From Gramella sp. AN32 (lineage in GTDB: Bacteria > Bacteroidota > Bacteroidia > Flavobacteriales > Flavobacteriaceae): a stretch of DNA of 64,000 bases. Of the stretch, positions 11,554-27,372 are shown piece after piece. The stretch is from NCBI RefSeq assembly GCF_023718305.1, contig NZ_QEYO01000008.1:1-64000 (forward strand). The letters are read 5' to 3'. The notes below the pieces were generated by a model. It was not told where the DNA came from and did no database searches. It was given only the letters and a program-made list of their open reading frames with translations. A program made the translations under genes and the position numbers. The stretch's first letter is position 1. Each line of letters starts with the position of its first letter.

Positions 11554-14500
11554 TTATTGGCTTAGCCATAAACGCACTACGTTTATTAATTTATCAATTT
11601 TAACCGGTTTGGTAAGGTAATCATTGGCACCTGCCTCCAGGCTTTTGGCTTTATCTTCCGGCATTGCTTTCGCGGTTAATGAAATTATTGGTAATTTTTT
11701 ATAGGTTGCATATTTCCTTATTTTTGTCGTGGCTTCATACCCATTCATAATGGGCATCATTACATCCATTAGGACAATATCTATATCTTTATCCTCTTCT
11801 AATTTTTCAATTGCAACTTTTCCATTATTTGCGACTATCACCTTCATACCTGAGTCAGATAAAGCTTTAGAAAGTGCATAAGAATTGCGTTCATCATCAT
11901 CTACTATCAGTACTTTTCTGTTCTTCAAGACATGTTTCGGATCATGCAAGTCAGATATTATCTTTTTTTGCTTAGGCGATAATTTAATTTCGTTAAAATG
12001 TATATATAAAGAAACCTCATCTAAAAGTAACTCCGGTGAAGATGCCCCTTTAATTAAAATACTGTCTGTAAATTTGTTAAGTTCTACGTTTTCTTTTTTT
12101 GTGAGTTCCTTTCCGGTATATACCACTACCGGAATATGATCTGCTTTTTGACGGGATTTCAGCTTTTCCAGTAACTCAAATCCGGTAATATCCGGGAGTT
12201 TAAGATCAAGAATTATACAATCGAAGCTTTTGGATTTTAGCTTTTGCAATGCAACTTTCCCCGTAGTTGCGGTAGAAATTTTAACCTCCTTATTCTTCAG
12301 GATACTTTTAATTGCCTTTAAAGTTGCCTCATCATCTTCAATAATAAGAATCTCCCTAACCGGTGTGTTATCTATTTTTTCCACCTTTTGAATGACATTC
12401 TCAACAACCTTGGCACTTATAGGCTTTAGACTAAATCCCATTGCTCCTTTACTAAGGGCCTCACGACTTTTATCTTCATCTGCCATGAAATATACCGGTA
12501 TATGTCTGGTTTTTAAATTAAATTTTAAATGATCCAAAACACTTAGCCCTTTCATATCAGGTAACTTTTCATTCATGAGGATACCCTTGGGTTGATATTG
12601 CTCTGCCAGTTTCATTCCTTCTTTTCCATCCTTTGCAAAAAGTAACTTAAAGCCATATTTCTTAACTAGTTTTTTTATTGTCTGCGCTAGATATTGATCC
12701 TGATCAATTATCAACAGGGTGTATTCCGAAACTTTTAAATTCTCTCTATCATCAGGTATATAAGATTCTATAGTATTTGTAGTTTCACTTTCTGTCAACT
12801 CCCTCCCCTTATCTCTAGAATGAATTTGATTTGACTCACTATAAGAAGAAATGGCATCATCCATTTCTTTTATAGGCGCACTTGGTAGGTCCATAGGAAT
12901 ATATACTTTAAAGTCGCTTCCTTTTCCTTCCTTACTCTCTATATGTATTTCACCTCCTAATAATCGTGATAATTCCCTCGAAATTGTCAATCCAAGCCCT
13001 GTGCCTCCATATTGACGACTGGTACCTCCTTCCGCCTGTTGAAAGGCTTCAAAGATCATCATTCGCTTGGCTTCAGGAATTCCAATTCCTGTATCTTTTA
13101 CTGAAATTTCTAATACTTCAGATTTTGAGAGGGTTATTTCACTGAATTTAACGCTTGCATCTGGTTTACAAATCATAACATTCACCGATCCTTTTTCTGT
13201 AAATTTAATGGCGTTTGAAATAAGGTTCTTAATAATTTGTTCCAACCGCTGCCCATCGGTTACTATCCTTTCAGGTGCATTTGGTTTAGATTGTATAGAA
13301 AACTTTAGCTTTTTCGATTTTGCCAGGGGCTCAAACTGGTTTTTAAGGTTATTTACAAGACCTTCTATTACGACTTCTTCTGGATTAATCTGTAGTTTTC
13401 CTGCTTCTACTTTTGAAAGATCTAAAATATCGTTAATAAGGTTTAACAGGTTTAATCCTCCTTCATATATAATGCTAGCGGACTTTTGTTGATCTTTAAA
13501 TAAGTTCCCTTTATTATTATCACTAAGGTCTTTGGAAAGGATCAGAAGACTGTTTAATGGTGTTCTCAATTCATGAGACATATTGGCCAGAAATTCTGAT
13601 TTATATTTACTGGCAAGTTCTAATTCTTTTGCTTTGCGCTCTACCTCGACTCTACTGGATTGTAAATCCTCTTTCTGCATCTCTAAATCTGTAGTCTTAG
13701 TTTCAAGATCCTCATTGGCCATCTGTAATTCCTGACTCTGAATCTTTAATTTTTCCTGTTGTTGTAATAACTCTTCAGATTGTCGCTGCGACTCTTCCAG
13801 GAGGTCTTTCATTTTTTCCCTATCCAGGGCAGAGTTGGTAGTAATAGCTATATTTTCTCCTACTGACCGTACTAATTCCAGCTGATTATCATTAAAAGAC
13901 TTGAAGGAACCAATCTCAATTACACCTTTTACCTCACCATCAATGATGAATGGCTGAACCAGAATATGTCTGGGTTCTTTTTTTCCCAGGCCTGACGATA
14001 CACTTATATAATCTCCGGGTATACCTGAAAGAACAATGGCTTCTTTCTCCATAGCAGCCTGACCCACGAGTCCTTCGCCAAAATCAAAAGTAGTTTTAAG
14101 GGATTTTCGGTGGGTAAACGCATAGGAACCTGTCATCCTTAGTTGTTTCTTCTCTTTATTTTTTTCAGACAGATAAATTACTCCTACCTGACCATCAAGG
14201 TACTTAGTTAAATAGGAAATAATATTCTTCGACAAAGTCAAAAGATCTTGTTCGCCCCGCATTCGGTCATTAAGCCCGGCCTGTCCGGTCTTAATCCAGG
14301 CTTCATTTTCGTTTTCCTCTGATATCCGTTTTAAGTTCTCAGTCATTGAATTCAGGGCAATACCCAGCTGATCAGCTTCACTTCGAAGGGGCATCTCTAT
14401 TGCAAAGTTCCCTTCAGCAATAGTATTTGCCGCCTTCACAATAGTGGTGAAACTGTCTACCATTGCATTAATGTTATTTTTTAGTTCCTGAACTTCACCT

Positions 14501-17490
14501 TTTACTTCTACATCAATTTTTCTGGAGAAATCACCCCTGGCAAGGGCAGTAGAGACCCCGGCGATATCCCGTACCTGCGACGTTAAATTGCTCGCCATTT
14601 GATTTACATTATCGGTAAGGTCTTTCCATGACCCGGCCACATTTGGCACCTCGGCCTGCCCGCCAAGAATCCCTTCCGTACCCACTTCGCGGGCAACATT
14701 GGTCACCTCATCTGCAAAAATGTTAAGAGCATCCACCATTATATTAATGGTAGTAGAAAGTTCTAATACTTCGCCCCCTTTTCCCTGTTCTGAAATTTTC
14801 TGTGAAAGATCTCCGTGAGCAACGGCAGTGGTCACCGAAGCAATCTCTCGTACCTGTGTGGTCAAATTACTGGCCATGGTATTCACGTTATCGGTAAGCC
14901 CCTTCCAGGTACCTGCAACATTAGGCACCCTGGCCTGGCCCCCAAGCATACCTTCAGTTCCAACTTCCCTCGCCACACGTGTTACCTCCGCTGCAAAGAC
15001 ATTCAGCGAATCCACCATCTGATTAATAGTGTCTTTTAATTCGGCTATTTCACCTTTTACATCAATAGATATCTTTTGGGAGAGATCTCCGTGTGCTACC
15101 GCTGTTGCTACATTGGCAATCTCCCTCACCTGACTGGTAAGATTACTAGCCATAGTATTCACATTACCGGTAAGGTCCAACCAGGCACCTGCAACATTAG
15201 GAACTTCTGCCTGACCTCCCAACATACCTTCAGTACCTACCTCACGGGCTACACGCGTTACCTCATTAGAAAGTATGTTCAGGGAATCCACCATCGTGTT
15301 AATAATGGTAGAGAGTTCCAGTACTTCTCCTCCTTTTTCCTCTTCAGAAATCTTTTTAGATAAATCCCCATTGGCAACGGCTTTGGTTACCGATGCAATT
15401 TCCCTTACCTGTGTGGTAAGATTTGATGCCATGGTATTTACGTTATCCGTTAATTCCCACCATGCGCCACCTACGTTGGGAACTTCTGCCTGACCACCCA
15501 GGATACCTTCGGTACCTACTTCCCGTGCAACACGGGTAACCTCATCAGAAAAAATGTTCAGAGAATCCACCATCGTGTTGATGGTTTCTTTTAGTTCGGC
15601 TATTTCACCTTTGGCCTCAATACCAATTTTTTGTGCCAAATCACCTTTTGCCACTGCGGTTGCTACATTTGCAATCTCCCTTACCTGTGTGGTAAGATTC
15701 GAGGCCATATAATTCACATTATCGGTAAGGTCTTTCCAGGTTCCGGCCACATCGGGCACCTTAGCCTGTCCGCCAAGAATTCCCTCTGTACCTACTTCAC
15801 GGGCCACACGCGTTACCTCATCAGAGAAAATATTAAGGGAATCCACCATCTGGTTGATCGTATCCTTAAGTTCCGCTATCTCTCCTTTTACATCAATCGT
15901 TATTTTTTGTGAAAGATCACCATCGGCTACTGCGGTTGCTACGTTTGCTATTTCTCTAACCTGGGTAGTAAGGTTGCTCGCCATGATATTAACATTATCA
16001 GTAAGATCTTTCCAGGTTCCGGCTGCACTTGGCACAGTTGCCTGGCCTCCCAGTTTTCCTTCCGTACCCACTTCACGGGCCACACGCGTTACCTCAGCGG
16101 CAAACAAGGTTAATGAATCAACCATACTGTTGATTGTGTTGGAAAGAATTAATACTTCTCCTCCTTTTCCTTCTTCAGTAATCTTTTGTGAAAGGTCTCC
16201 CTGCGCAACCGCGGTTGTGACCGAGGCGATTTCCCGCACCTGATTGGTCAGGTTATTTGCCATGGTATTTACATTGTCTGTAAGGTCTTTCCAGGTTCCG
16301 GCCACATCGGGAACTTTGGCTTGTCCTCCCAGTTTTCCCTCTGTACCTACTTCCCGTGCCACACGGGTAACCTCATCGGAGAAAATGTTCAGCGAGTCCA
16401 CCATCTGGTTAATCGTATCCTTTAGCTCTGCGATTTCTCCTTTTACATTAATAGATATTTTCTTTGAAAGGTCACCATTTGCAACTGAAGTTGCCACTCC
16501 GGCGATCTCCCGCACCTGAGCGGTAAGATTGGAAGCCATTGTATTTACGTTTACCGTAAGATCTTTCCAGGTTCCTGCAACGTCCGGCACATCTGCCTGG
16601 CCTCCCAGTTTTCCTTCAACCCCCACTTCCCGGGCAACATTTGTTACCTCTGCGGCAAAAATGTTCAGGGAATCTACCATTCTATTTATGGTGGTGGATA
16701 ACCCAAGAACTTCCCCACCCTTTCCTTCTTCCGTAATTTTTCTTGAGAGATCTCCATCAGCTACCGCTGTGGTTACTCCCGCTATTTCACGTACTTGCTC
16801 CGTCAGGTTGCTTGCCATCTGGTTTACATTATCTGTAAGATCTTTCCAGGTCCCCGAAACGTTCGGTACACTTGCCTGTCCTCCCAGTTTTCCTTCCACT
16901 CCCACCTCACGGGCCACTTGCGTTACTTGTTCTGCAAAAATGTTCAGACTACCTAAGGTTCGGTTGATTACATCAGCCATGGCTCGAAAATCACCGGTTA
17001 CCGTCAGACTAAATTTATCTTCCAGCTTTCCTGCCGCTATACTATTAAGGATCCGACTTACTTCAAGTACAGGTTTGGCTATCGCTTCAATAAGGATGTT
17101 TATATTGTCTATCATATCCTTCCATACCCCACTGGAAGCCTTAAATTCCGCCCTCGCGTCCAAATTACCTTCAATTCCCCCCACACGTGATATACGTGAT
17201 ACTTCAGTACTAACCCCACCAATCATTTCAACCATGGAATTGTAAGCTTCGGCCACATCCGCGAATTTATCATTTCGCTCCTTTGATAGCCGAACGGAAA
17301 TATCCCCTTCCCTAAACGCCTCCAGTGCAAATATCAGTCTATCCAGTTGTTCATGCATATAATCATTATCCTTGAACATATCTTTATCTGGTACGCGTTT
17401 GGCCTTTTTAACAATTTGGTCTTTTGCCGGGATAGTTTTACGGGTAGAGGTTTTACTTTTGGTGTTAGGGGAAGTGGTCTTTTTGGACAT
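11554..17490 (-). CDS. Giant soluble poly-HAMP hybrid histidine kinase with GAF and three receiver domains
   Basis: 1978 residues with no transmembrane segment or signal peptide, so probably cytoplasmic. A Lys-rich N-terminus is followed by about 12 HAMP cores (xGDxSxKI-like motifs, about residues 58-1000) in units of 92-93 residues. Most units alternate between a KGGEVL-type and a KGEIAELK-type connector. Then come GAF (about 1060-1210), a long coiled coil, HisKA with H1306 ([10 protein letters not shown]), HATPase ([25 protein letters not shown]), REC1 (about 1590-1700) with N1640 where the phospho-acceptor Asp should be, REC2 with D1762 and REC3 with D1909. The layout resembles fungal group III osmosensing kinases (Nik1/Os-1). 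A divergent receiver at 17731 is a likely partner. The repeats are visible in DNA as 276-279-bp units. Confidence 0.95.
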
Positions 17491-18749: not shown

Positions 18750-19142
18750 ATGAATAGTATTACTATATTTAATGACATGTATACGGGAATGCTTATAAAG
18801 GAGTTTTCCGATGGTATGGATTGCCTAACCTCCATGGAATATTTTTCCAATGCTATGGATGCAATAAAATATGTGAATGAAAATCCAGTTGATCTTATTT
18901 TATTAGAGCTTCACCTCCCTGAATTTATGGGATTAATTCAATCTTTAAAGAAAATTCCAAAAATAATTATCATTATTTCAGATTTGCCATCCGTTTATAA
19001 AGCCTCTGGATTTCCTTGTGAAGTAGAGTATTTGATAAAGCCTTTTTCCAAGGAAAAATTCGATGTAGCATTACATAAAGCTCACAATTATAAATCTATA
19101 AACAGCAATTCTTTTCCAATTGGATTTGCAGGGAAAAATTAA
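18750..19142 (+). CDS. Stand-alone pseudo-receiver related to the LytTR regulator's receiver
   Basis: 130 residues. It aligns along its length with the receiver half of the LytTR regulator at 26665-27372: SNAMDAIKYVNENPVDLILL here against SNAIEAIKFLNQNAVDLIFL there. It has no DNA-binding domain. The phospho-acceptor is Glu (E53 in LLELHLPEFMG) where the paralogue has D53, and the acidic pocket DDEE is reduced to NDMY, so it cannot be phosphorylated normally. The Lys of the active site remains (YLIKPFS). A role as constitutive mimic, decoy or heterodimer partner of the LytTR regulator is inference. It is transcribed on the plus strand and convergent with the fibre locus; a hairpin follows. Confidence 0.75.
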   Translation: MNSITIFNDMYTGMLIKEFSDGMDCLTSMEYFSNAMDAIKYVNENPVDLILLELHLPEFMGLIQSLKKIPKIIIIISDLPSVYKASGFPCEVEYLIKPFSKEKFDVALHKAHNYKSINSNSFPIGFAGKN

Positions 19143-19486
19143 GAATCTAAAAGGCCCTACTGGCAGACTCTAATCTAGATGATTGTTGTTTGGTTAACTT
19201 CTTGAAGAAACGAAATGCCGGTAAAATTACCGGCATTTCTATATTGAAAAGGTTAAATGCGCAGGTATTGAATAACCATCCTTTTATTACCTGTTTTAAT
19301 TGAATTATCTTGAATGAGAGATCAGGAAGTTTATATTTGAATTAGATAACCCAGTGTTCTAAAAAAGGTATATAAGACAGTAAGTATAAAATTGAATTGT
19401 AAACCAACACGTTACACTTTTTTATATGCCAAATTTGAAGAACATTATAACATACAAAAAGTAACTACTAATAAGCTTAAAAGCTT
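19143..19486. other. Intergenic region between convergent genes
   Basis: 344 bp. It contains the hairpin at 19212-19239; otherwise nothing recognisable. Confidence 0.5.
19212..19239. terminator. Perfect inverted repeat, probable terminator
   Basis: GAAATGCCGGTAA and its exact complement are separated by two A, 70 nt after the pseudo-receiver stop. The T run is poor (TCTATATT), so termination strength is uncertain. It may serve both converging transcripts. Confidence 0.55.
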
Positions 19487-20068
19487 TTACATTAAACTTC
19501 CAACAACGGTATAATAAATATCAAAGTTACTAGGCGTGCCGGGAACCAAGGCACTTGCTTTAATTTTGAATTGAATAGGAATATCAGTTCGGCAACCTGT
19601 AAACTCAAATATTTTTATAGCTTGGGAACCGCTATTTGGAACGGTAATATAAGATCCTCCATTATTTGGCGTAAGGTCTCTAGGCCCAAGTGGTTGTATG
19701 GGAAGTGAATCATAAGTGCTAACCGCTGGAAAACGCAGTCCGCTATTAAAAGTTGTTTTCGCTTCAAGTATTAATCCTACTGGAGCATTGGTCGTATGAA
19801 TATACACACTATATCTAAAAACGTTTGCTTCACACATTATTTCTGAATTCAGGAGGAGCTGAGGATTTAAAACAAAACCAATTAGAGTTGCATCAAAATT
19901 ACTTTCAAAGCCAATTGTAGTATCATCCAGACCTGCTTCCATTACGACATCATCTAAAGATTGAATAAAATTTGGCATTCCTGAAACATCTAATGTTCCT
20001 GGTAATAATTGCGAATATGTAGTTTGTGTTAAACTCAAACAGATTATAAAGAGGATTAGCTTTTTCAT
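19487..20068 (-). CDS. Secreted protein, last gene of the chaperone-usher-like locus (candidate minor subunit)
   Basis: 193 residues. Signal peptide about 1-19 (LILFIICLSLTQTTYS, cleavage before QLLPG). The mature part is beta-rich with two Cys (EIMCEAN, FTGCRTD) that could form a disulfide. It ends in a hydrophobic, alternating strand (SNFDIYYTVVGSLM), as pilin-like subunits do. I do not recognise a family. It lies 100 nt after the 192-residue secreted protein and is the last gene of the run pilin-like, chaperone-like, usher-like, subunit, subunit. A tip or minor subunit is possible by position. Confidence 0.6.
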   Translation of the reverse strand: MKKLILFIICLSLTQTTYSQLLPGTLDVSGMPNFIQSLDDVVMEAGLDDTTIGFESNFDATLIGFVLNPQLLLNSEIMCEANVFRYSVYIHTTNAPVGLILEAKTTFNSGLRFPAVSTYDSLPIQPLGPRDLTPNNGGSYITVPNSGSQAIKIFEFTGCRTDIPIQFKIKASALVPGTPSNFDIYYTVVGSLM

Positions 20069-20168
20069 ATGTAGATATTTATTGTTTTTTATTTGTCATA
20101 TGCAATTCGCATATCTTCATGGGTGTTTGTATCTTATTCCCGTTATGCTCATTTCATAATATAGAGAT

Positions 20169-20747
20169 TTATCTAATTTCAAAAATTATTTCAAATCCTG
20201 TTGGTAAGGATTTAAAACTTGGGTTTTCTATTGTGTATCTTATTAAGTACCCGGTGTTTTCTCCATCACCTGTATAGCCACTGTCAAAATCATTAACAAT
20301 AACTTGGTCAGAAGTGGTTAAGGTTATTGGATTGGTATTAGGATTGGCATTATATACCCCGCCAATATTTGCGGTAGAAATTATTTGAATAATTACATTT
20401 ATGCCTTCAGGAATGGGTTGATTTGATCTAGTGAATATCCTGGCATTTTCATTATTTATGGATCTATAAGTGAAATTAAGCCAGAACTCATCAGTTGTAG
20501 GGCTTCCTGTATTAATATAAGGCTTTCCCGCTTCTATAGGTGTTGCATTGGAGGATAATCCTGTATATAGATCCGGTTCAATATCTGTAATAGCAATTCT
20601 CTGCAAATCCATAAATGCAGTATTGGTTTCTTGGCCTCCTCCTAAAATAAATGTATCTGGATTAGAAGCGTCAATGATTTCCTGAGAGAAGCAATTCCCT
20701 ATAAATAATGAGAAAATAGCAATTGATATGAGTTGTGATTTTTTCAT
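20169..20747 (-). CDS. Secreted pilin-like protein of the chaperone-usher-like locus
   Basis: 192 residues. Signal peptide about 1-21 (ISIAIFSLFIGNCFS, cleavage before QEIID). Near the C-terminus the stretch DSGYTGDGENTGYLIRYTIE matches ESVYTGDENYGVRLTYTLE of the protein at 24869-25513, so the two are related subunits. The protein ends in alternating hydrophobic residues (GFEIIFEIR), as in donor-strand or final beta-strand segments. It starts 2 nt after the usher-like stop, so the two are translationally coupled. No named family recognised; function as surface-fibre subunit is inferred from context. Confidence 0.65.
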   Translation of the reverse strand: MKKSQLISIAIFSLFIGNCFSQEIIDASNPDTFILGGGQETNTAFMDLQRIAITDIEPDLYTGLSSNATPIEAGKPYINTGSPTTDEFWLNFTYRSINNENARIFTRSNQPIPEGINVIIQIISTANIGGVYNANPNTNPITLTTSDQVIVNDFDSGYTGDGENTGYLIRYTIENPSFKSLPTGFEIIFEIR

Positions 20748-20749
20748 GA

Positions 20750-23700
20750 TTACTGTCCTATTTTAAAATTCTTATTGGTAAATTTCACTTTTCGTTCCTT
20801 AGCGATTATAACAAAGGGAACATCCATTGTTTCTCCCGCCCCCACAGATATCTGTATATCCTTTTTTATTTCGAAGTCATCATTTTCTTTGAATCTTATT
20901 AAATTGAGGGTGTAGGTGCCAGGTACAATATCTTTGAACTGGAAGATTCCTTCTTTGTTCGACTCTACATGATAGGTGAAATTTTTATTTTCTATTTTGA
21001 AATATTTTTCAAGCATATTGGAAGCGGTTTTATTACCAGCAATGCTAATTGTTCCATTGATGTTGGCAGATTTAATAAGTTGGAGCGTAATATCGCTTTC
21101 TCTTTCTTGACGGATTTCTACTTCTATAGATGTTTTTTGCGAAGAAACTATGCCCATGGGAAGGGATGATTCATCGATTAGAACGTAATTTTTTCCTAGC
21201 GGAAGGTTATTCAATTGAAATCTTCCATTTTTATCGGTTAGTATGGTTTGCCCCGCAGCGATTATTTTAATTCCAGATACTTTGATGGATTCATCTTCTG
21301 CATAAATAACTCCTCTTAAGCCGCCTTGTTGTAAAACTCTTTTTAAGGGAACTCCAAAAGAATAGGTGTATTTACCTAATGCTAATAATTCCTTTTTATT
21401 AACGCTCCCGGGATTTTCATAATAATTTGCCCTTACCTCAAATTGATGGTTTTTGTTGAGATGTACTAAAAGATTGGCATTAATAAAATCTCGTTTTAAA
21501 TAATTTTCTTCCGGACTAAACCCGCTGTTATATGATGCATTTATGCGTAAAGTTTTATTCATATTATAATTAAAACCTAGGCTATATCTTAGATAGTTCA
21601 TATTAATATTAGAATTACCATACCTGTTACTGTAATTATGATTGATGCTTCCTCTTAAAGTTAGTTCATCCAAAATTCTGTAAGAAGAATTTAAGTTATG
21701 GGAAAAGGTATTCCTATATTTTAAGCTTTCACTTAATAGGTTTTTGGTCCTGGATAACCTTCCGCTAAAGTTTAATACAAATGCTGGAGAGGAATAAAGG
21801 TACCTATAGTTAATACCATGTTCTTTATAATAATAGGATTTGGGTTCCATTTGATCTTCTCTCGTTCTTTGTTCTAAACGAATATTTACTAAATGACGAT
21901 TTTTAAATCGGTAACCAAGCATCCCGTAATAATTTTCATAATAAGGTTCTGCAGCATAAAATAAAGGATCCAAGCGTCTATTAACTTTGGAAATGGTTTG
22001 CCCTAATGCAAAATTCCAACGATTATTTTTATAATAGAAGTTATTGGAGTATTGTAGGCTATTGCGTATACTTCCAAAATAATCTTTTCCTGCAATGGTA
22101 AGAGTTCCTGAATATGTTAAATTTTTATACTGCTGTACCAAATTGATATAATTGGCCAAGGCAGTAGCTTCATTAGTCAAACTAACCGAAGTTTCTGCAT
22201 CTATATAAGTACCCTTATTTCTATAATTTAAATTAACAGTACCTATTTGGCCAGATTCGTTTGGATTAGCTTCAATATTACTGTTTACGCCTTGGATGGT
22301 TCCCTGTGATCTTTCTATAGCAAGACCAATTTTTAAGGAATCGCTAACATTATACACCGATTTTACACCATAAAGAGCTGAAGAGTTAAAGCTGTATAAC
22401 CTAGGTTTAGAATAAAAAGTTGAAAATGTCCATTTTTTTATATCCTGATCTATTCTAAAACCCATACCATATCTACTATCAAAACCCAAGCGGTTAATAA
22501 AATAAGCATGATCCCCCACATAAATGTTCGTTTTGTTATTGTACCTGTATATAAAACTATACTGATCTGTTACTCCAAATCGTTTTAAATTTTGTTGTTG
22601 AGGGGCTCTTATTATAAAATTTAAATGATGCTTTTTATTTAAATCCAAGTAACCATCTCCCATAAGCTCCGAAGAGATTGTAGAAAAATGATTGTTTTTA
22701 TAGGTATGACTGTTGTAATTTAAACTAGCTCTAATTGGAAATCTAAAAAAAGGATCTTTTTTCTCAATTTTACTAGGAAATATTTGAGTACTGGTATACG
22801 CTCTATAGGTTTGTTTAGAAGTTTTACTATAAACATCTAACTGAGAACCTACATTTCTCAAAAAGTAAACTTTAGAATCTGTTTTCTTTGAAACTTCAAT
22901 TACAAGCGTGGAATCTGGAGCAATAGAATATTTTTTATCACCGGTTATTGTTCCTGTAGAATTTAACTCTATTTCTTGTTTGATATTTCCATTGTTTTGG
23001 ATACCAAATCTGGCATTTATCGTTTCTCCGGCTTTTAAAGTTTGTGGAGCAGAAATATTATATACCTGAAGTTCATAATTTTTATCTACTTCAAAATCAA
23101 CCTCTAGAGTTTTTACAATAGTGCCTTCGGCGTCAACCAAATTAAATACCGCATTAGATTTTCCAGATTTAGCTTTGGCAGGAATATTAAAGCTTACAAG
23201 AACAAGTTTTTTCTCATTGGGTTTTAGGTTTTCAATATCCCCAGCAGATACTAACTTCCATGATTCAGGTAAAGTTTCATTTAGAAATAGATTTTGTATG
23301 GTGTCAGTTTCATTGGTGATTTGTAAAGTAATAGTATGGTTAGAGGCGGTTTTATAAATTTCAGATGGATTAAGAATCTCCATTTTTATTAGGATGTTCT
23401 CTTTCTGGTTTACAGAGGTATTTATTTGCGATCCGTTATTAGATACGGTAGGCGAATTTCTTTTTTTATTTATTCTCAGTGCAGTTGTATTTTGTTCATA
23501 TGAGGTTTCTCCAACATTTACTATACTGTCCACCTTATTGTTTGAAGTTTTTACAGAAGGTCTTTTCTTTGAATCTTGTCCTTGCTGAAAATTATCCTTA
23601 GAATTTTTATAAGATATGGTTTTTACAGTCTTATTAGGGGCATCTGAAAATACCGTTAAATCTTTCACACTGTCATTTCTTGCTTCTTGCTCTAAAAAGA

Positions 23701-23821
23701 TGGGCGATGGTGTGTTGTATATATCACTAGGATTTGCATCAAAACGTTCATTTTGCAAATCTCCCTCGCATCCCACTATTAGGACAACAAAAAAATAGCT
23801 AAGTTTTAATACATTCTTCAT
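20750..23821 (-). CDS. Usher-like outer-membrane lipoprotein with Ig-like N-terminus, beta barrel and CnaB-like C-terminus
   Basis: 1023 residues. A lipoprotein signal peptide with lipobox LIVGC (C18) is followed by a low-complexity region, two NEW3-like Ig domains (about 145-350; SFNIPAKAKSGKSNAVFNLV), and a ~450-residue region of aromatic amphipathic strands (about 360-825). The segment NIYVGDHAYFINRLGFDSR resembles the start of usher barrels. Two carboxypeptidase-regulatory/CnaB-like domains follow (from residue 833: ILTDKNGRFQLNNLPLGKNY and SSLPMGIVSS), comparable to the C-terminal domain of alpha-type (CFA/I CooC/TcfC-like) ushers. It lies between a chaperone-like gene and secreted pilin-like genes, which supports an export-pore role. 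Homology to ushers is inferred from layout, not proven. Confidence 0.65.
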   Translation of the reverse strand: MKNVLKLSYFFVVLIVGCEGDLQNERFDANPSDIYNTPSPIFLEQEARNDSVKDLTVFSDAPNKTVKTISYKNSKDNFQQGQDSKKRPSVKTSNNKVDSIVNVGETSYEQNTTALRINKKRNSPTVSNNGSQINTSVNQKENILIKMEILNPSEIYKTASNHTITLQITNETDTIQNLFLNETLPESWKLVSAGDIENLKPNEKKLVLVSFNIPAKAKSGKSNAVFNLVDAEGTIVKTLEVDFEVDKNYELQVYNISAPQTLKAGETINARFGIQNNGNIKQEIELNSTGTITGDKKYSIAPDSTLVIEVSKKTDSKVYFLRNVGSQLDVYSKTSKQTYRAYTSTQIFPSKIEKKDPFFRFPIRASLNYNSHTYKNNHFSTISSELMGDGYLDLNKKHHLNFIIRAPQQQNLKRFGVTDQYSFIYRYNNKTNIYVGDHAYFINRLGFDSRYGMGFRIDQDIKKWTFSTFYSKPRLYSFNSSALYGVKSVYNVSDSLKIGLAIERSQGTIQGVNSNIEANPNESGQIGTVNLNYRNKGTYIDAETSVSLTNEATALANYINLVQQYKNLTYSGTLTIAGKDYFGSIRNSLQYSNNFYYKNNRWNFALGQTISKVNRRLDPLFYAAEPYYENYYGMLGYRFKNRHLVNIRLEQRTREDQMEPKSYYYKEHGINYRYLYSSPAFVLNFSGRLSRTKNLLSESLKYRNTFSHNLNSSYRILDELTLRGSINHNYSNRYGNSNINMNYLRYSLGFNYNMNKTLRINASYNSGFSPEENYLKRDFINANLLVHLNKNHQFEVRANYYENPGSVNKKELLALGKYTYSFGVPLKRVLQQGGLRGVIYAEDESIKVSGIKIIAAGQTILTDKNGRFQLNNLPLGKNYVLIDESSLPMGIVSSQKTSIEVEIRQERESDITLQLIKSANINGTISIAGNKTASNMLEKYFKIENKNFTYHVESNKEGIFQFKDIVPGTYTLNLIRFKENDDFEIKKDIQISVGAGETMDVPFVIIAKERKVKFTNKNFKIGQ

Positions 23822-23851
23822 GAGTAATGGTTTTATGTGAGAGGTATTTTT

Positions 23852-24643
23852 TTATTCTATAGTAAGGCTAACGTTAGTGGCTACAAATTCCTTTCTAGCA
23901 TCGGCAATTAGAATACATTCATAGTTCCCATTTTCTAACTGTGAAATATCAATATCATATTTTTTACAAAATCCAGGAAAGACCATGTTTCTCTTCGTGC
24001 TAGTTTCCAGAACTTTTTCTCCATTTTGATTGTATACTTCTAAAGAGAGTTTTACACCTTCTATAAATAAACTTTCATTTATTAGTTTGATAAAAAGGCT
24101 TTTTCCACCCGTATTGGTATTTTGCTCCAGATCCAATTTTTGAAAATCTAAATTAACCTCGCTGTAATTGTTTACATTAGTAAGTAATCCTATAGCATAT
24201 CTTATTTTAGTGTCTAGATCTATGTTTTGGGTAAGTCTTTCTTCTTTAATGGGTTTTTCAATATCAAGCATTAATGCTGTCCAGAAAGAACCTCTTAATG
24301 TTGGATCTTTAGGAATATTAATAGAGAATCTGTATACATATTTTTCTTTTGGTGCCAATACTTTATCCATAAGGCTTCCATCAAACCATTTATTTGAAGA
24401 CTGACTGTGGGAAATTTCTTCAGAGAAAAAGCGATCGCTATCACAAGAAAAGATAGCATCGTTAAGTTGAAAACTTACTCTTTGTTCAAATTCGGTAGTA
24501 TTAAGTAAAATAATTTCACCTTGCAATTGATCTCCAGAAGCTCCAGAATAAACATGGGTCAATCCGTTGATTATAACTACACTTGAATAACTTTGGTTGA
24601 CCATTAGTAATAATAAAATACTAGTAAAAAAAATATGTCTCAT
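23852..24643 (-). CDS. Periplasmic chaperone-like protein of the usher-like locus
   Basis: 263 residues. Signal peptide about 1-20 (FFTSILLLLMVNQSYS). The mature protein has two predicted Ig-like halves: one beginning with a beta-rich HVYSGASGDQLQGEIILLNT, and a second around KSLFIKLINESLFIEGVKLS. It resembles PapD-type chaperones or the DUF916-like part of WxL-associated proteins (conserved N.t......v.f.l...i pattern after the first strand). It lies 30 nt upstream of the usher-like gene and downstream of the major pilin-like gene, matching the order of alpha-type fimbrial operons. Function inferred. Confidence 0.6.
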   Translation of the reverse strand: MRHIFFTSILLLLMVNQSYSSVVIINGLTHVYSGASGDQLQGEIILLNTTEFEQRVSFQLNDAIFSCDSDRFFSEEISHSQSSNKWFDGSLMDKVLAPKEKYVYRFSINIPKDPTLRGSFWTALMLDIEKPIKEERLTQNIDLDTKIRYAIGLLTNVNNYSEVNLDFQKLDLEQNTNTGGKSLFIKLINESLFIEGVKLSLEVYNQNGEKVLETSTKRNMVFPGFCKKYDIDISQLENGNYECILIADARKEFVATNVSLTIE

Positions 24644-24820
24644 GGCAGTAAAATTTAAGATTTGATTTAGATAGACTTTCTATACAAGTAAATTTAAGGG
24701 GATGTAGGTGCTTTAAATAGTAGTATTCGTTGGGGAGTCTGTTTCTGTAGATAAGAGGTGGATAATCTACTTTTAATGGAAAATGATATAAATCGATGTT
24801 TATCATCATTTTTATAAAAT

Positions 24821-24850
24821 AAAAGAGGCTCCTTATAAGGAGCCTCTTTT
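24821..24850. terminator. Perfect 30-nt palindrome, bidirectional terminator inside the fibre operon
   Basis: AAAAGAGGCTCCTTA is followed directly by its reverse complement; the A and T ends give a T run on either strand. It lies 18 nt after the stop of the pilin-like gene (minus strand) and before the chaperone-like gene. Partial termination here would make more subunit mRNA than chaperone/usher mRNA. Confidence 0.8.
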
Positions 24851-24868
24851 GATGGAGCAAAAAAAGAA

Positions 24869-25513
24869 TTAAAAATCTGTAAGGGTGTACTTCACAGTAG
24901 ATTGATAAGTTCCGGCATAGTATCCGGCAAAATTTCCATTTTGCTCTAGTGTATAAGTTAACCTTACACCATAGTTCTCATCTCCAGTATATACACTTTC
25001 AATGCTATCTACCAATAGAGCATCTGTACCAATAGGAGTAGTTGCACCTAATGCAACACCACCTGGCATTACAGTCCCTGCAGAGTCAGCAGTACCACCA
25101 TCTACAACAATCACCGGTGCTTCTGGCATTATTCTAAGGTCTAGGTTCCCTGGAAATGTGCTTCCGGCTTCAAATTGAACGTTTATTTTTCGATCCAGAT
25201 CGTATCCACTAACATTGGCAGCTCCTGCTACAACGCTGGTGTAATTCAAATATAAATCTGAATAACTAACATCCTGAAAGGCATATAAACCAGCCTCTGC
25301 ATTTGTTCCTGAAAGCGTGACATTTGTCATATCAAACATTATGGCAGCGGCTTCTGTTCCGGTATTGGCATCAAAAATATCCAATAAGGCTACTTCAGGA
25401 ACATTCACATCCAATATATGCGTTGCAATATTGGTGTCATCATTGTCTTGGGCACTCAGGCTTTGTGAAAGTACAATTGTAAGTGCAACAAATAAAAGTT
25501 TTACATTTTTCAT
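24869..25513 (-). CDS. Secreted pilin-like protein, first gene of the chaperone-usher-like locus (candidate major subunit)
   Basis: 214 residues. Signal peptide about 1-21 (LLFVALTIVLSQSLSA, cleavage before QDNDD). The mature protein is acidic, rich in Ala/Gly/Thr/Val, has no Cys, and is predicted all-beta. It shares the near-C-terminal pattern SxYTGDxEN...LxYTxE with the protein at 20169-20747 and ends in alternating strand-like residues (STVKYTLTDF). First position and a terminator directly after it suit an abundant major subunit. No named family recognised; spore-coat-U-like or alpha-fimbrial subunits are the nearest general comparison. Confidence 0.65.
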   Translation of the reverse strand: MKNVKLLFVALTIVLSQSLSAQDNDDTNIATHILDVNVPEVALLDIFDANTGTEAAAIMFDMTNVTLSGTNAEAGLYAFQDVSYSDLYLNYTSVVAGAANVSGYDLDRKINVQFEAGSTFPGNLDLRIMPEAPVIVVDGGTADSAGTVMPGGVALGATTPIGTDALLVDSIESVYTGDENYGVRLTYTLEQNGNFAGYYAGTYQSTVKYTLTDF

Positions 25514-26664: not shown

Positions 26665-27372
26665 TTATAATAAATTAAGTTTTTTCATTAATTCGCCTCT
26701 ATTCGATCTGCTTATTGGAATAACATCTTTTTCAATGAGCACACTATTATCTTCAATGTCAATAATTTTTTGAAAATTAATTACATAAGATCTGTGAACT
26801 TTTAAAAACATATTCCCAGGTAGCTTGTCCTCAATTTTTTTTAAAGTAGAATGTACGGTATAATTCTTTTTTTCCGTTTTAATCAATATATAATCACCTT
26901 TAGCTTCAATAATATTGATAGAAGGAAGATCAATTTTAATAAGTCTCCTATCTATATTAACATAAAGGATTTTATGGGTTTCCTCATCTAAGGATTCGGC
27001 CTCACTTGGTATTACGGTATTATTAGAAGAGAATGCTTTTTGAACTGATTTATTGAACCGATCTATAGATAATGGCTTTACCAAATAATCTACTATACAG
27101 TCATATTCAAATGCGGTTATGGCAAAATCTTTATCTGAAGTAGTAAGGACTATTTTTGGTGGATTTTTTATAGTTTGTATAAAATCAAACCCGGTAAATC
27201 CGGGCATATGGATATCTAAAAAAATAAGATCGACCGCATTTTGGTTTAAGAATTTTATAGCTTCTATTGCATTTGAGAAACAACCTACTAACATTACCTG
27301 GGGAGTATTCGAGATCATCCCTTCAATAATAGTTCTTGCCATTTCTTCGTCATCAATAATAATACAATTCAT
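26665..27372 (-). CDS. LytTR-family response regulator
   Basis: 235 residues. The REC domain (1-120) has IIIDDEE, phospho-acceptor D53 (LIFLDIHMPGFTG), and Lys in YLVKPLS. The LytTR DNA-binding domain (about 135-235) has the typical core YILIKTEKKNYTVHSTLKKI and FLKVHRSYVINFQKI, then ENDSVLIEK-like strands and ISRSNRGEL. LytTR proteins bind direct repeats about 21 bp apart. It is the last gene of the H-NOX/FIST operon and the only DNA-binding protein there, hence the probable output. The stand-alone pseudo-receiver at 18750 is a paralogue of its receiver half. Confidence 0.93.
   Translation of the reverse strand: MNCIIIDDEEMARTIIEGMISNTPQVMLVGCFSNAIEAIKFLNQNAVDLIFLDIHMPGFTGFDFIQTIKNPPKIVLTTSDKDFAITAFEYDCIVDYLVKPLSIDRFNKSVQKAFSSNNTVIPSEAESLDEETHKILYVNIDRRLIKIDLPSINIIEAKGDYILIKTEKKNYTVHSTLKKIEDKLPGNMFLKVHRSYVINFQKIIDIEDNSVLIEKDVIPISRSNRGELMKKLNLL

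Follow-up and report, generated by a model that had tools for sequence, protein, structure and literature searches.

Is the run of five minus-strand genes between positions 25513 and 19487 of a 64,000-nucleotide stretch of Gramella sp. AN32 (contig NZ_QEYO01000008.1, positions 1 to 64,000; hereafter the window) a chaperone-usher pathway, as the original prediction proposed, and if so, of which kind? According to the analysis presented here, the five genes quite probably specify a chaperone-usher-like pathway with non-classical parts, which assembles immunoglobulin (Ig)-like subunits into a fibre on the cell surface. Prediction or comparison supports the domain architecture, the fold of the chaperone, the class of the barrel, the synteny and a terminator, and the best reading is a system that works like a chaperone-usher pathway, yet lies outside the known usher and PapD families by the features tested. 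The observation behind the original prediction is thereby confirmed and its interpretation as a whole partly supported: the chaperone-usher-like model is retained, and membership of the known families is not. Among the literature matches listed, which left most subscription papers and all bioRxiv preprints outside coverage, there was neither such a Bacteroidota system, nor a plug-free usher, nor a link between WxL proteins and chaperone-usher assembly.

All five open reading frames (ORFs) were found in the proposed places and order, which in the direction of transcription is PIL1, CHAP, USHER, SUB2 and SUB3, with intergenic gaps of 225, 30, 2 and 100 bases. The genes and the parts of their products are listed below.

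24869..25513, minus strand: PIL1, first pilin-like subunit, probably the major one, 214 residues; signal peptide by eye; C-terminal YQSTVKYTLTD
23852..24643, minus strand: CHAP, candidate periplasmic chaperone, 263 residues, two Ig-like domains; WxLIP-like sequence, WxLIP- and PapD-like fold
24173..24223, minus strand: CHAP residues 141-157, covering the last part of the F1-G1 loop and the G1 strand; candidate donor strand
20750..23821, minus strand: USHER, usher-like outer-membrane protein, 1023 residues
23390..23770, minus strand: USHER residues 18-144, lipobox Cys18 followed by a long linker of low confidence (predicted local distance difference test score, pLDDT, <50 at 16-142)
22751..23389, minus strand: USHER residues 145-357, two N-terminal Ig-like domains, from the model and weak NEW3-type Pfam matches
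21338..22750, minus strand: USHER residues 358-828, predicted 26-strand barrel without a plug insertion
20801..21328, minus strand: USHER residues 832-1007, two C-terminal prealbumin-like (Ig-like) domains, from Pfam and the model
20169..20747, minus strand: SUB2, second pilin-like subunit, 192 residues, PIL1 homologue
19487..20068, minus strand: SUB3, third secreted subunit, 193 residues, distant SUB2 homologue

The gene order recurs in other Bacteroidota. The barrel gene is single-copy in its own genome, where the sole other match is weak and limited to a C-terminal domain. In searches that took one genome per species and covered part of the phylum, USHER was found in 5 of 59 genomes of relatives and in 18 of 395 genomes drawn from Bacteroidota, the own genome being counted in both. 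It is also present in 18 loci of named records, fetched via the barrel gene, whose host genera include Lutibacter, Tenacibaculum, Arenibacter, Leeuwenhoekiella and Maribacter, as well as Algoriphagus, Roseivirga, Dyadobacter, Runella and an uncultured Owenweeksia. Counts out of 18 refer to these loci (L007-L024), two of which, L012 and L023, are apparently the same places as L004 and L006 (equal protein lengths and scores). CHAP, detected with a five-row profile (A2, including L004 and L006) and with a profile holding all 18 (A4), lies immediately upstream of USHER in 18/18 loci. SUB2 follows USHER in 17 (L018 reaches the contig end there), and SUB3 is present in 16, the misses being L018, for the same reason, and L014, which has a size-fitting ORF without a match. 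PIL1 lies upstream in 17 of the 18, about 2.5-2.8 kb away in L011 and L019, and is missing at the contig start in L023. The CFA/I-like gene order that had been noticed in the window is thus supported by synteny conserved over 18 loci.

Additional PIL1 paralogues lie near some of the operons, namely in L010 (13460-14074), L013 (2739-3368), L016 (2394-3008 and 14423-15037) and L024 (3851-4414), which could perhaps serve as alternative major subunits. In more distant Bacteroidota genomes CHAP again adjoins USHER, with pilin-like genes nearby where wider flanks were read; in L077, L078 and L082 CHAP was absent from the ORF picking, yet was seen at the same places as L035, L030 and L034. According to profile comparison, the distant subunits (18 of 22 compared) are homologous to PIL1 (E 2e-14) and the distant chaperones to CHAP (E 4e-41).

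CHAP had been put forward as a PapD-like chaperone, a proposal that stands by fold and not by sequence, which belongs with the Gram-positive WxLIP proteins, a relation that the original prediction did not suspect. Its AlphaFold2 model, built like that of USHER from a 19-row alignment, has a pLDDT of 88.9, lower at about residues 131-150. The top three Foldseek matches are WxLIP of Enterococcus faecium (9i1y, 9i25; E 6e-14 to 9e-13), followed by two unrelated rows (Vpr, RbmA) and then by pilus chaperone entries, namely the CFA/I chaperone-adhesin complex 6k73 (E 1.1e-8), CfaA 4ncd (5.8e-8), and CsuC, Caf1M and FimC at about 1e-7, mixed with a few other Ig proteins. VIA-align, applied as a second look to the Foldseek matches only, gives the highest Z to WxLIP (17.0 and 16.0 for 9i25/9i1y, root-mean-square deviation (rmsd) 6), followed by CfaA (13.2) and by SfaE, FimC, Caf1M, CsuC and PapD (11-13, rmsd about 3.6-5); the pilus chaperones align from about residue 20 across both domains, and single Ig domains of glycosidases likewise reach 11-13. 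CHAP is structurally near both WxLIP and PapD-type chaperones, and its predicted fold suggests common ancestry of the two, an ancestry to which direct comparison of the WxLIP and PapD-chaperone profiles (A8 against A10) lends no sequence support (hhalign-type probability, Prob, 16).

Sequence comparison separates the two relations. In hhalign, CHAP and WxLIP align over 212 columns spanning both domains (E 1.4e-7, Prob 94), with a score of 58.9, whereas neither the 20 column shuffles nor the reversed profile scored above 22.3. The comparison with ten E. coli K-12 PapD-type chaperones yields Prob 3 and score 24, and no PapD family is found among the 17 Pfam families matched. At E <= 0.1, PF11797 is matched in 8 of the 19 CHAP rows and PF06030 in 1. 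Of 296 phylum genomes, 4 have a WxLIP_HBD match above the family cut-off, and all 4 carry this operon. PDB sequence searches with CHAP and its profile returned no relative, and tblastn of CHAP on plasmids returned one chance match (E 8). Judged by sequence, CHAP is a relative of WxLIP and not detectably one of PapD. It differs from WxLIP in lacking the C-terminal membrane helix, the model ending in a strand at 252-262, and its N-terminus reads NGLTH in 19/19 rows, with NQIDK absent.

The segment proposed as the donor strand has an alternating pattern. Residues 141, 143, 147, 149, 151 and 153 are hydrophobic in 19/19 rows, and 142, 144, 146, 148 and 152 in at most 1 of 19; the alternation is imperfect, 145 being Thr/Ser and 154 hydrophobic. 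This G1 pattern resembles the donor strands of pilus chaperones. The F1-G1 loop has 18 residues in the model, close to the 20 of class 5, the averages described for the three known chaperone subfamilies being 13, 20 and 24 (PMC4133393). A separate candidate, type IX secretion cargo, was rejected, the CHU_C and Por_Secre_tail matches on CHAP being weak (0.008 and 0.01) and located on an Ig-like domain.

As for USHER, both TDKNGRFQLNNLPLG and SSLPMG, quoted in the original prediction for the CnaB-like C-terminal domains, are located in the 1023-residue protein, which also has the expected lipobox (VLIVGC, Cys18). The CnaB-like C-terminal domains are borne out by Pfam, where prealbumin/CarboxypepD-like families match the C-terminus, with SpaA and CarboxypepD_reg exceeding their cut-offs; the N-terminal NEW3-like matches are weak. 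The AlphaFold2 model (mean pLDDT 79, predicted template modelling score 0.58) shows the anticipated barrel and Ig-like domains in the order linker, two Ig-like domains (145-348), 26 successive barrel strands and two further Ig-like domains. In the Foldseek search against the PDB, ranks 1-9 are all FimD or PapC (E 2e-15 to 4e-12), and VIA-align places FimD across the barrel and C-terminal domains (model residues 361-1006) with Z 15.9. The usher-like architecture of the alpha-type proposal is therefore recovered in the predicted structure, and its family assignment is not: PF00577 is absent from the best 25 of the 27 Pfam families matched by 19 USHER relatives, no profile relation was detected, and the PDB sequence search with USHER found no relative. 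Classical usher membership was rejected on sequence grounds.

The barrel itself departs from the 24-strand, plugged form that had been expected, the model having 26 strands and no plug; the opposite expectation, a porin-like barrel of 16-18 strands, was likewise not borne out, 26 strands being predicted. Classical usher barrels are described with 24 strands and an Ig-like plug inserted between strands 6 and 7 (PMC4356140). In alignment to the model, the barrel takes 459-471 residues with a longest inter-strand stretch of 16 in 19/19 rows, and 437-447 residues with stretches of at most 13 in 7/7 distant relatives, so there is no room for an Ig-like plug; strand count and plug absence come from one predicted model and are carried to the other rows by alignment. 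Among three distant ushers, one matches CooC_C, the C-terminal domain of the CS1-pilus usher (1.3e-5), below its cut-off and more weakly than CarboxypepD_reg there. In a distant usher-like protein (L076, 3852-7508) the C-terminal Ig-like domains are followed by SPOR domains in three stretches (E 2.6e-25), which suggests peptidoglycan binding.

The lipobox behind the lipidation proposed for this divergent usher is present in the window protein and only in part of the family. The strict lipobox pattern flags 4 of 19 USHER proteins, among them L010 and L016, which are probably false matches. By eye, a lipobox-like Cys is present in 6 of the 19 (the window, L007, L008, L009, L013 and L022) and also in L003. 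In these six, 138-449 residues precede the Ig domains, whereas 11 of the 13 without such a Cys have at most 70 (L010 has 344 and L016 has 473). Because the lipobox-like Cys is present in a minority of the proteins, lipidation appears to be a variant in part of the USHER family and not its defining trait.

The three subunits have ordinary signal peptides by eye. The SxYTGD...YTxE motif, which had been pointed out for two secreted proteins, is common to PIL1 (SVYTGDENYGVRLTYTLE) and SUB2 (SGYTGDGENTGYLIRYTIE), and the two are homologous by profile (A5 against A6, E 2e-31). SUB3 is related to SUB2 (A7 against A6, E 8e-9), and its relation to PIL1 is undetectable (A7 against A5, Prob 12). The PIL1 alignment A5 omits L011, L019 and L023; the SUB2 alignment A6 omits L012, L014, L016, L018 and L023; and the SUB3 alignment A7 omits these last five and L008. 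Near the N-terminus, hydrophobic residues alternate at 34, 36 and 38 in 17/17 PIL1 sequences and at 46 and 48 in 18/18 SUB2 sequences, a segment that might act as a donor strand or else be no more than a first strand. Besides PIL1 and SUB2, the PIL1 profile has no further match in its own genome, and the PDB sequence search with the pilin profile found no relative. Pfam offers no convincing family for the subunits (none for PIL1), and NCBIfam has no family for any of the five proteins. Tyr takes the place of the Trp of WxL in the C-terminal motif of the subunits (17/17). When compared with the WxL profile (alignment A9, which excluded WxL fragments and one large WxL protein), a subunit aligns over 14 C-terminal columns (E 0.004, Prob 8), and wider alignments gave nothing; the likeness of the subunit YTLSD to the WxLSD of WxL is a hint at most, because the profile comparisons gave nothing usable.

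Terminators and possible regulators complete the locus, with the following features.

24821..24850, minus strand: hairpin resembling an intrinsic terminator, between PIL1 and CHAP, 13 pairs followed by a T-rich tail
19212..19239, minus strand: terminator-like hairpin 3' of SUB3, 12 pairs, possible operon end
26665..27372, minus strand: LytTR-type response regulator upstream of the operon, candidate regulator

The region has 3 terminator-like sites, no more than its shuffled versions (mean 3.2), and what matters is therefore where the hairpins lie and how long they are. A terminator-like hairpin stands 3' of PIL1 in 12 of 16 gaps (the window and 15 loci, L011, L019 and L023 being omitted with PIL1 non-adjacent or missing). 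In those 12, at most 1 of 60 shuffles, which preserve base composition only, is equally strong. It was not found in L014, L017 and L020, and the 7-base gap of L021 is too short to score. The hairpins differ in sequence, and therefore it is the structure that recurs. A terminator here is consistent with a major subunit produced in surplus over the assembly machinery, with the caveat that any separate gene may end in one. LytTR homologues occur in the flanks of 10/18 loci, a raw count without control for commonness. Elsewhere in the window, the plus-strand gene 18750-19142 encodes a lone receiver-like protein of 130 residues related to the LytTR regulator (phmmer E 2e-20), and the minus-strand gene 11554-17490 a hybrid sensor kinase of 1978 residues with many tandem HAMP-like repeats and several receiver domains by eye.

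Taken as a pathway, the parts may act as follows, where capping, strand exchange, export, the fibre and the subunit structure are what we infer. PIL1, SUB2 and SUB3 would reach the periplasm via Sec, and the two-domain CHAP would cap each of them with a strand of its F1-G1 hairpin, a step proposed by analogy with the predicted action of WxLIP on WxL and with that of PapD-type chaperones on pilins. The CHAP-subunit complexes would dock at the periplasmic Ig-like domains of USHER, where the N-terminal strand of the incoming subunit would displace the CHAP strand, and the fibre would be threaded outward through the barrel. PIL1, set apart by its terminator, would be overproduced and form the shaft, with SUB2 and SUB3 as putative minor subunits at the tip or base.

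Several results weigh against this interpretation. The template modelling scores of the USHER model to ushers are low, 0.2-0.26 of the query, and Foldseek also matches axonemal Ig arrays, which are unrelated to ushers, from E 3e-10, and siderophore receptors and LptD at about 1e-8 to 1e-6. For the barrel alone VIA-align puts MtrB first (Z 19.1, rmsd 5.6, 410 residues), with FimD/PapC entries from Z 15.9 down, amid other barrels at 13-15. In contrast to classical ushers, the plug is missing. PF00577 has no match in the own genome (E <= 0.01), and profile comparison with 8 E. coli K-12 ushers, a set that excluded the pseudogene yfcU, gives Prob 0.9 for USHER and 16 for its distant members. Together with the chaperone result, profile comparison thus reveals no detectable relation to the K-12 proteins. 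The subunit profiles match neither WxL domains nor K-12 FimA-type pilins (Prob <= 26). As for CHAP, the WxLIP_HBD match in the window reaches 26.6 bits for the protein alone, below the 28.9 cut-off, which was passed (30.6 bits) only in a six-frame search that ran on past a stop; the usher-bearing genome G086 has no WxLIP_HBD match, and 3 of 7 genomes with WxLIP_HBD at E <= 0.001 had no USHER match. Moreover, the Arg8/Lys112 anchor pair of PapD is not plainly conserved in CHAP, where His30 (19/19) and Lys146 (18/19) lie at roughly similar places; class 5 chaperones are described as also deviating at the anchor residues (PMC4133393).

Among the alternatives, the one that survives best, although unlikely, is a surface complex of the WxL/WxLIP type without a polymer, in which the WxLIP-like protein would stay bound to one or a few Ig-like adhesins at the cell surface and the barrel would only export or anchor them. 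CHAP is indeed closest to WxLIP by sequence and fold, and the role proposed for Gram-positive WxLIP is that of binding WxL and stabilising it at the wall (PMC10599100). In 7 of 8 stretches from Gram-positive bacteria, a WxL gene stands directly 5' of the WxLIP gene (L062 has no WxLIP gene). However, the membrane helix of WxLIP is missing from CHAP, an usher-sized barrel adjoins it in 18/18 loci, though these were fetched by the barrel gene, and a polymer accounts better for three distinct subunits of which the first has a terminator to itself. Clearly less probable is that the barrel is another outer-membrane machine, MtrB-like or of another 26-strand kind, with a different cargo and with the Ig-like proteins as accessories. 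Its attraction is the geometric rank of MtrB for the barrel alone, but the whole-chain Foldseek search ranks ushers first, the C-terminal Ig-like pair and the adjoining chaperone are usher features, and the Pfam matches of the five proteins include no haem-protein family, the flanks not having been searched for cytochromes. Already disfavoured, and hardly credible by now, is a genuinely classical chaperone-usher system that came from Proteobacteria by transfer and then diverged, which would account for a gene order equal to ecpABCD of E. coli K-12 and for the similar folds, but not for the lack of profile similarity of CHAP and USHER to K-12 proteins, the better match of CHAP to WxLIP, the differing predicted strand number, the absent plug and the spread across Bacteroidota.

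If the chaperone-usher-like pathway is real, Bacteroidota possess a second route to surface fibres besides type V pili, the function of the plug can be addressed with a plug-free usher, and there is a testable link from the Gram-positive WxL/WxLIP surface system to Gram-negative pilus assembly. A more tentative proposal, which we hold as possible but somewhat doubtful, is that these chaperone-usher-like machines form a lineage of their own, native to Bacteroidota, and that their chaperone and Gram-positive WxLIP have a common ancestor. In that case a single old family of donor-strand chaperones would have branched into WxL/WxLIP clusters and pilus chaperones. Classical ushers use the plug for gating, to which plug-free barrel export would then be an alternative solution.

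In comparison with class 5/alpha pili (CFA/I; ecpABCDE), the locus has the same order of subunit, chaperone, usher and subunit (ecp being the operon compared), a two-domain Ig chaperone whose F1-G1 loop is likewise long and whose donor-like strand is hydrophobic, and a large barrel that is likewise preceded by periplasmic N-terminal domains and followed by two Ig-like ones. It differs in the predicted 26-strand plugless barrel, in two N-terminal Ig-like domains rather than one domain, in the absence of Usher/PapD-type sequence matches, in variable N-terminal lipidation and in its Bacteroidota host.

With the WxL/WxLIP clusters (DUF916-DUF3324), the locus shares a chaperone related over both domains by sequence and fold, and a subunit gene directly upstream, as the pilin gene stands before CHAP (Gram-positive plasmids, L058-L061 and L063-L065). 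A hairpin strand of WxLIP is predicted to run parallel to a WxL strand and complete the WxL sandwich (PMC10599100), in effect donor-strand complementation, although the main text of that source is without the words chaperone, pilus and PapD. CHAP differs from WxLIP in the missing membrane helix and NQIDK, the subunits are not detectably WxL, and the locus has an outer-membrane barrel in addition.

Type V pili (FimA/Mfa1) are Bacteroidota surface fibres of sandwich-fold subunits as well, made of lipoprotein subunits through protease-triggered strand exchange, and they are not known to have an usher or a dedicated chaperone. In contrast, the subunits described here carry ordinary signal peptides by eye, and the gene for a barrel adjoins theirs.

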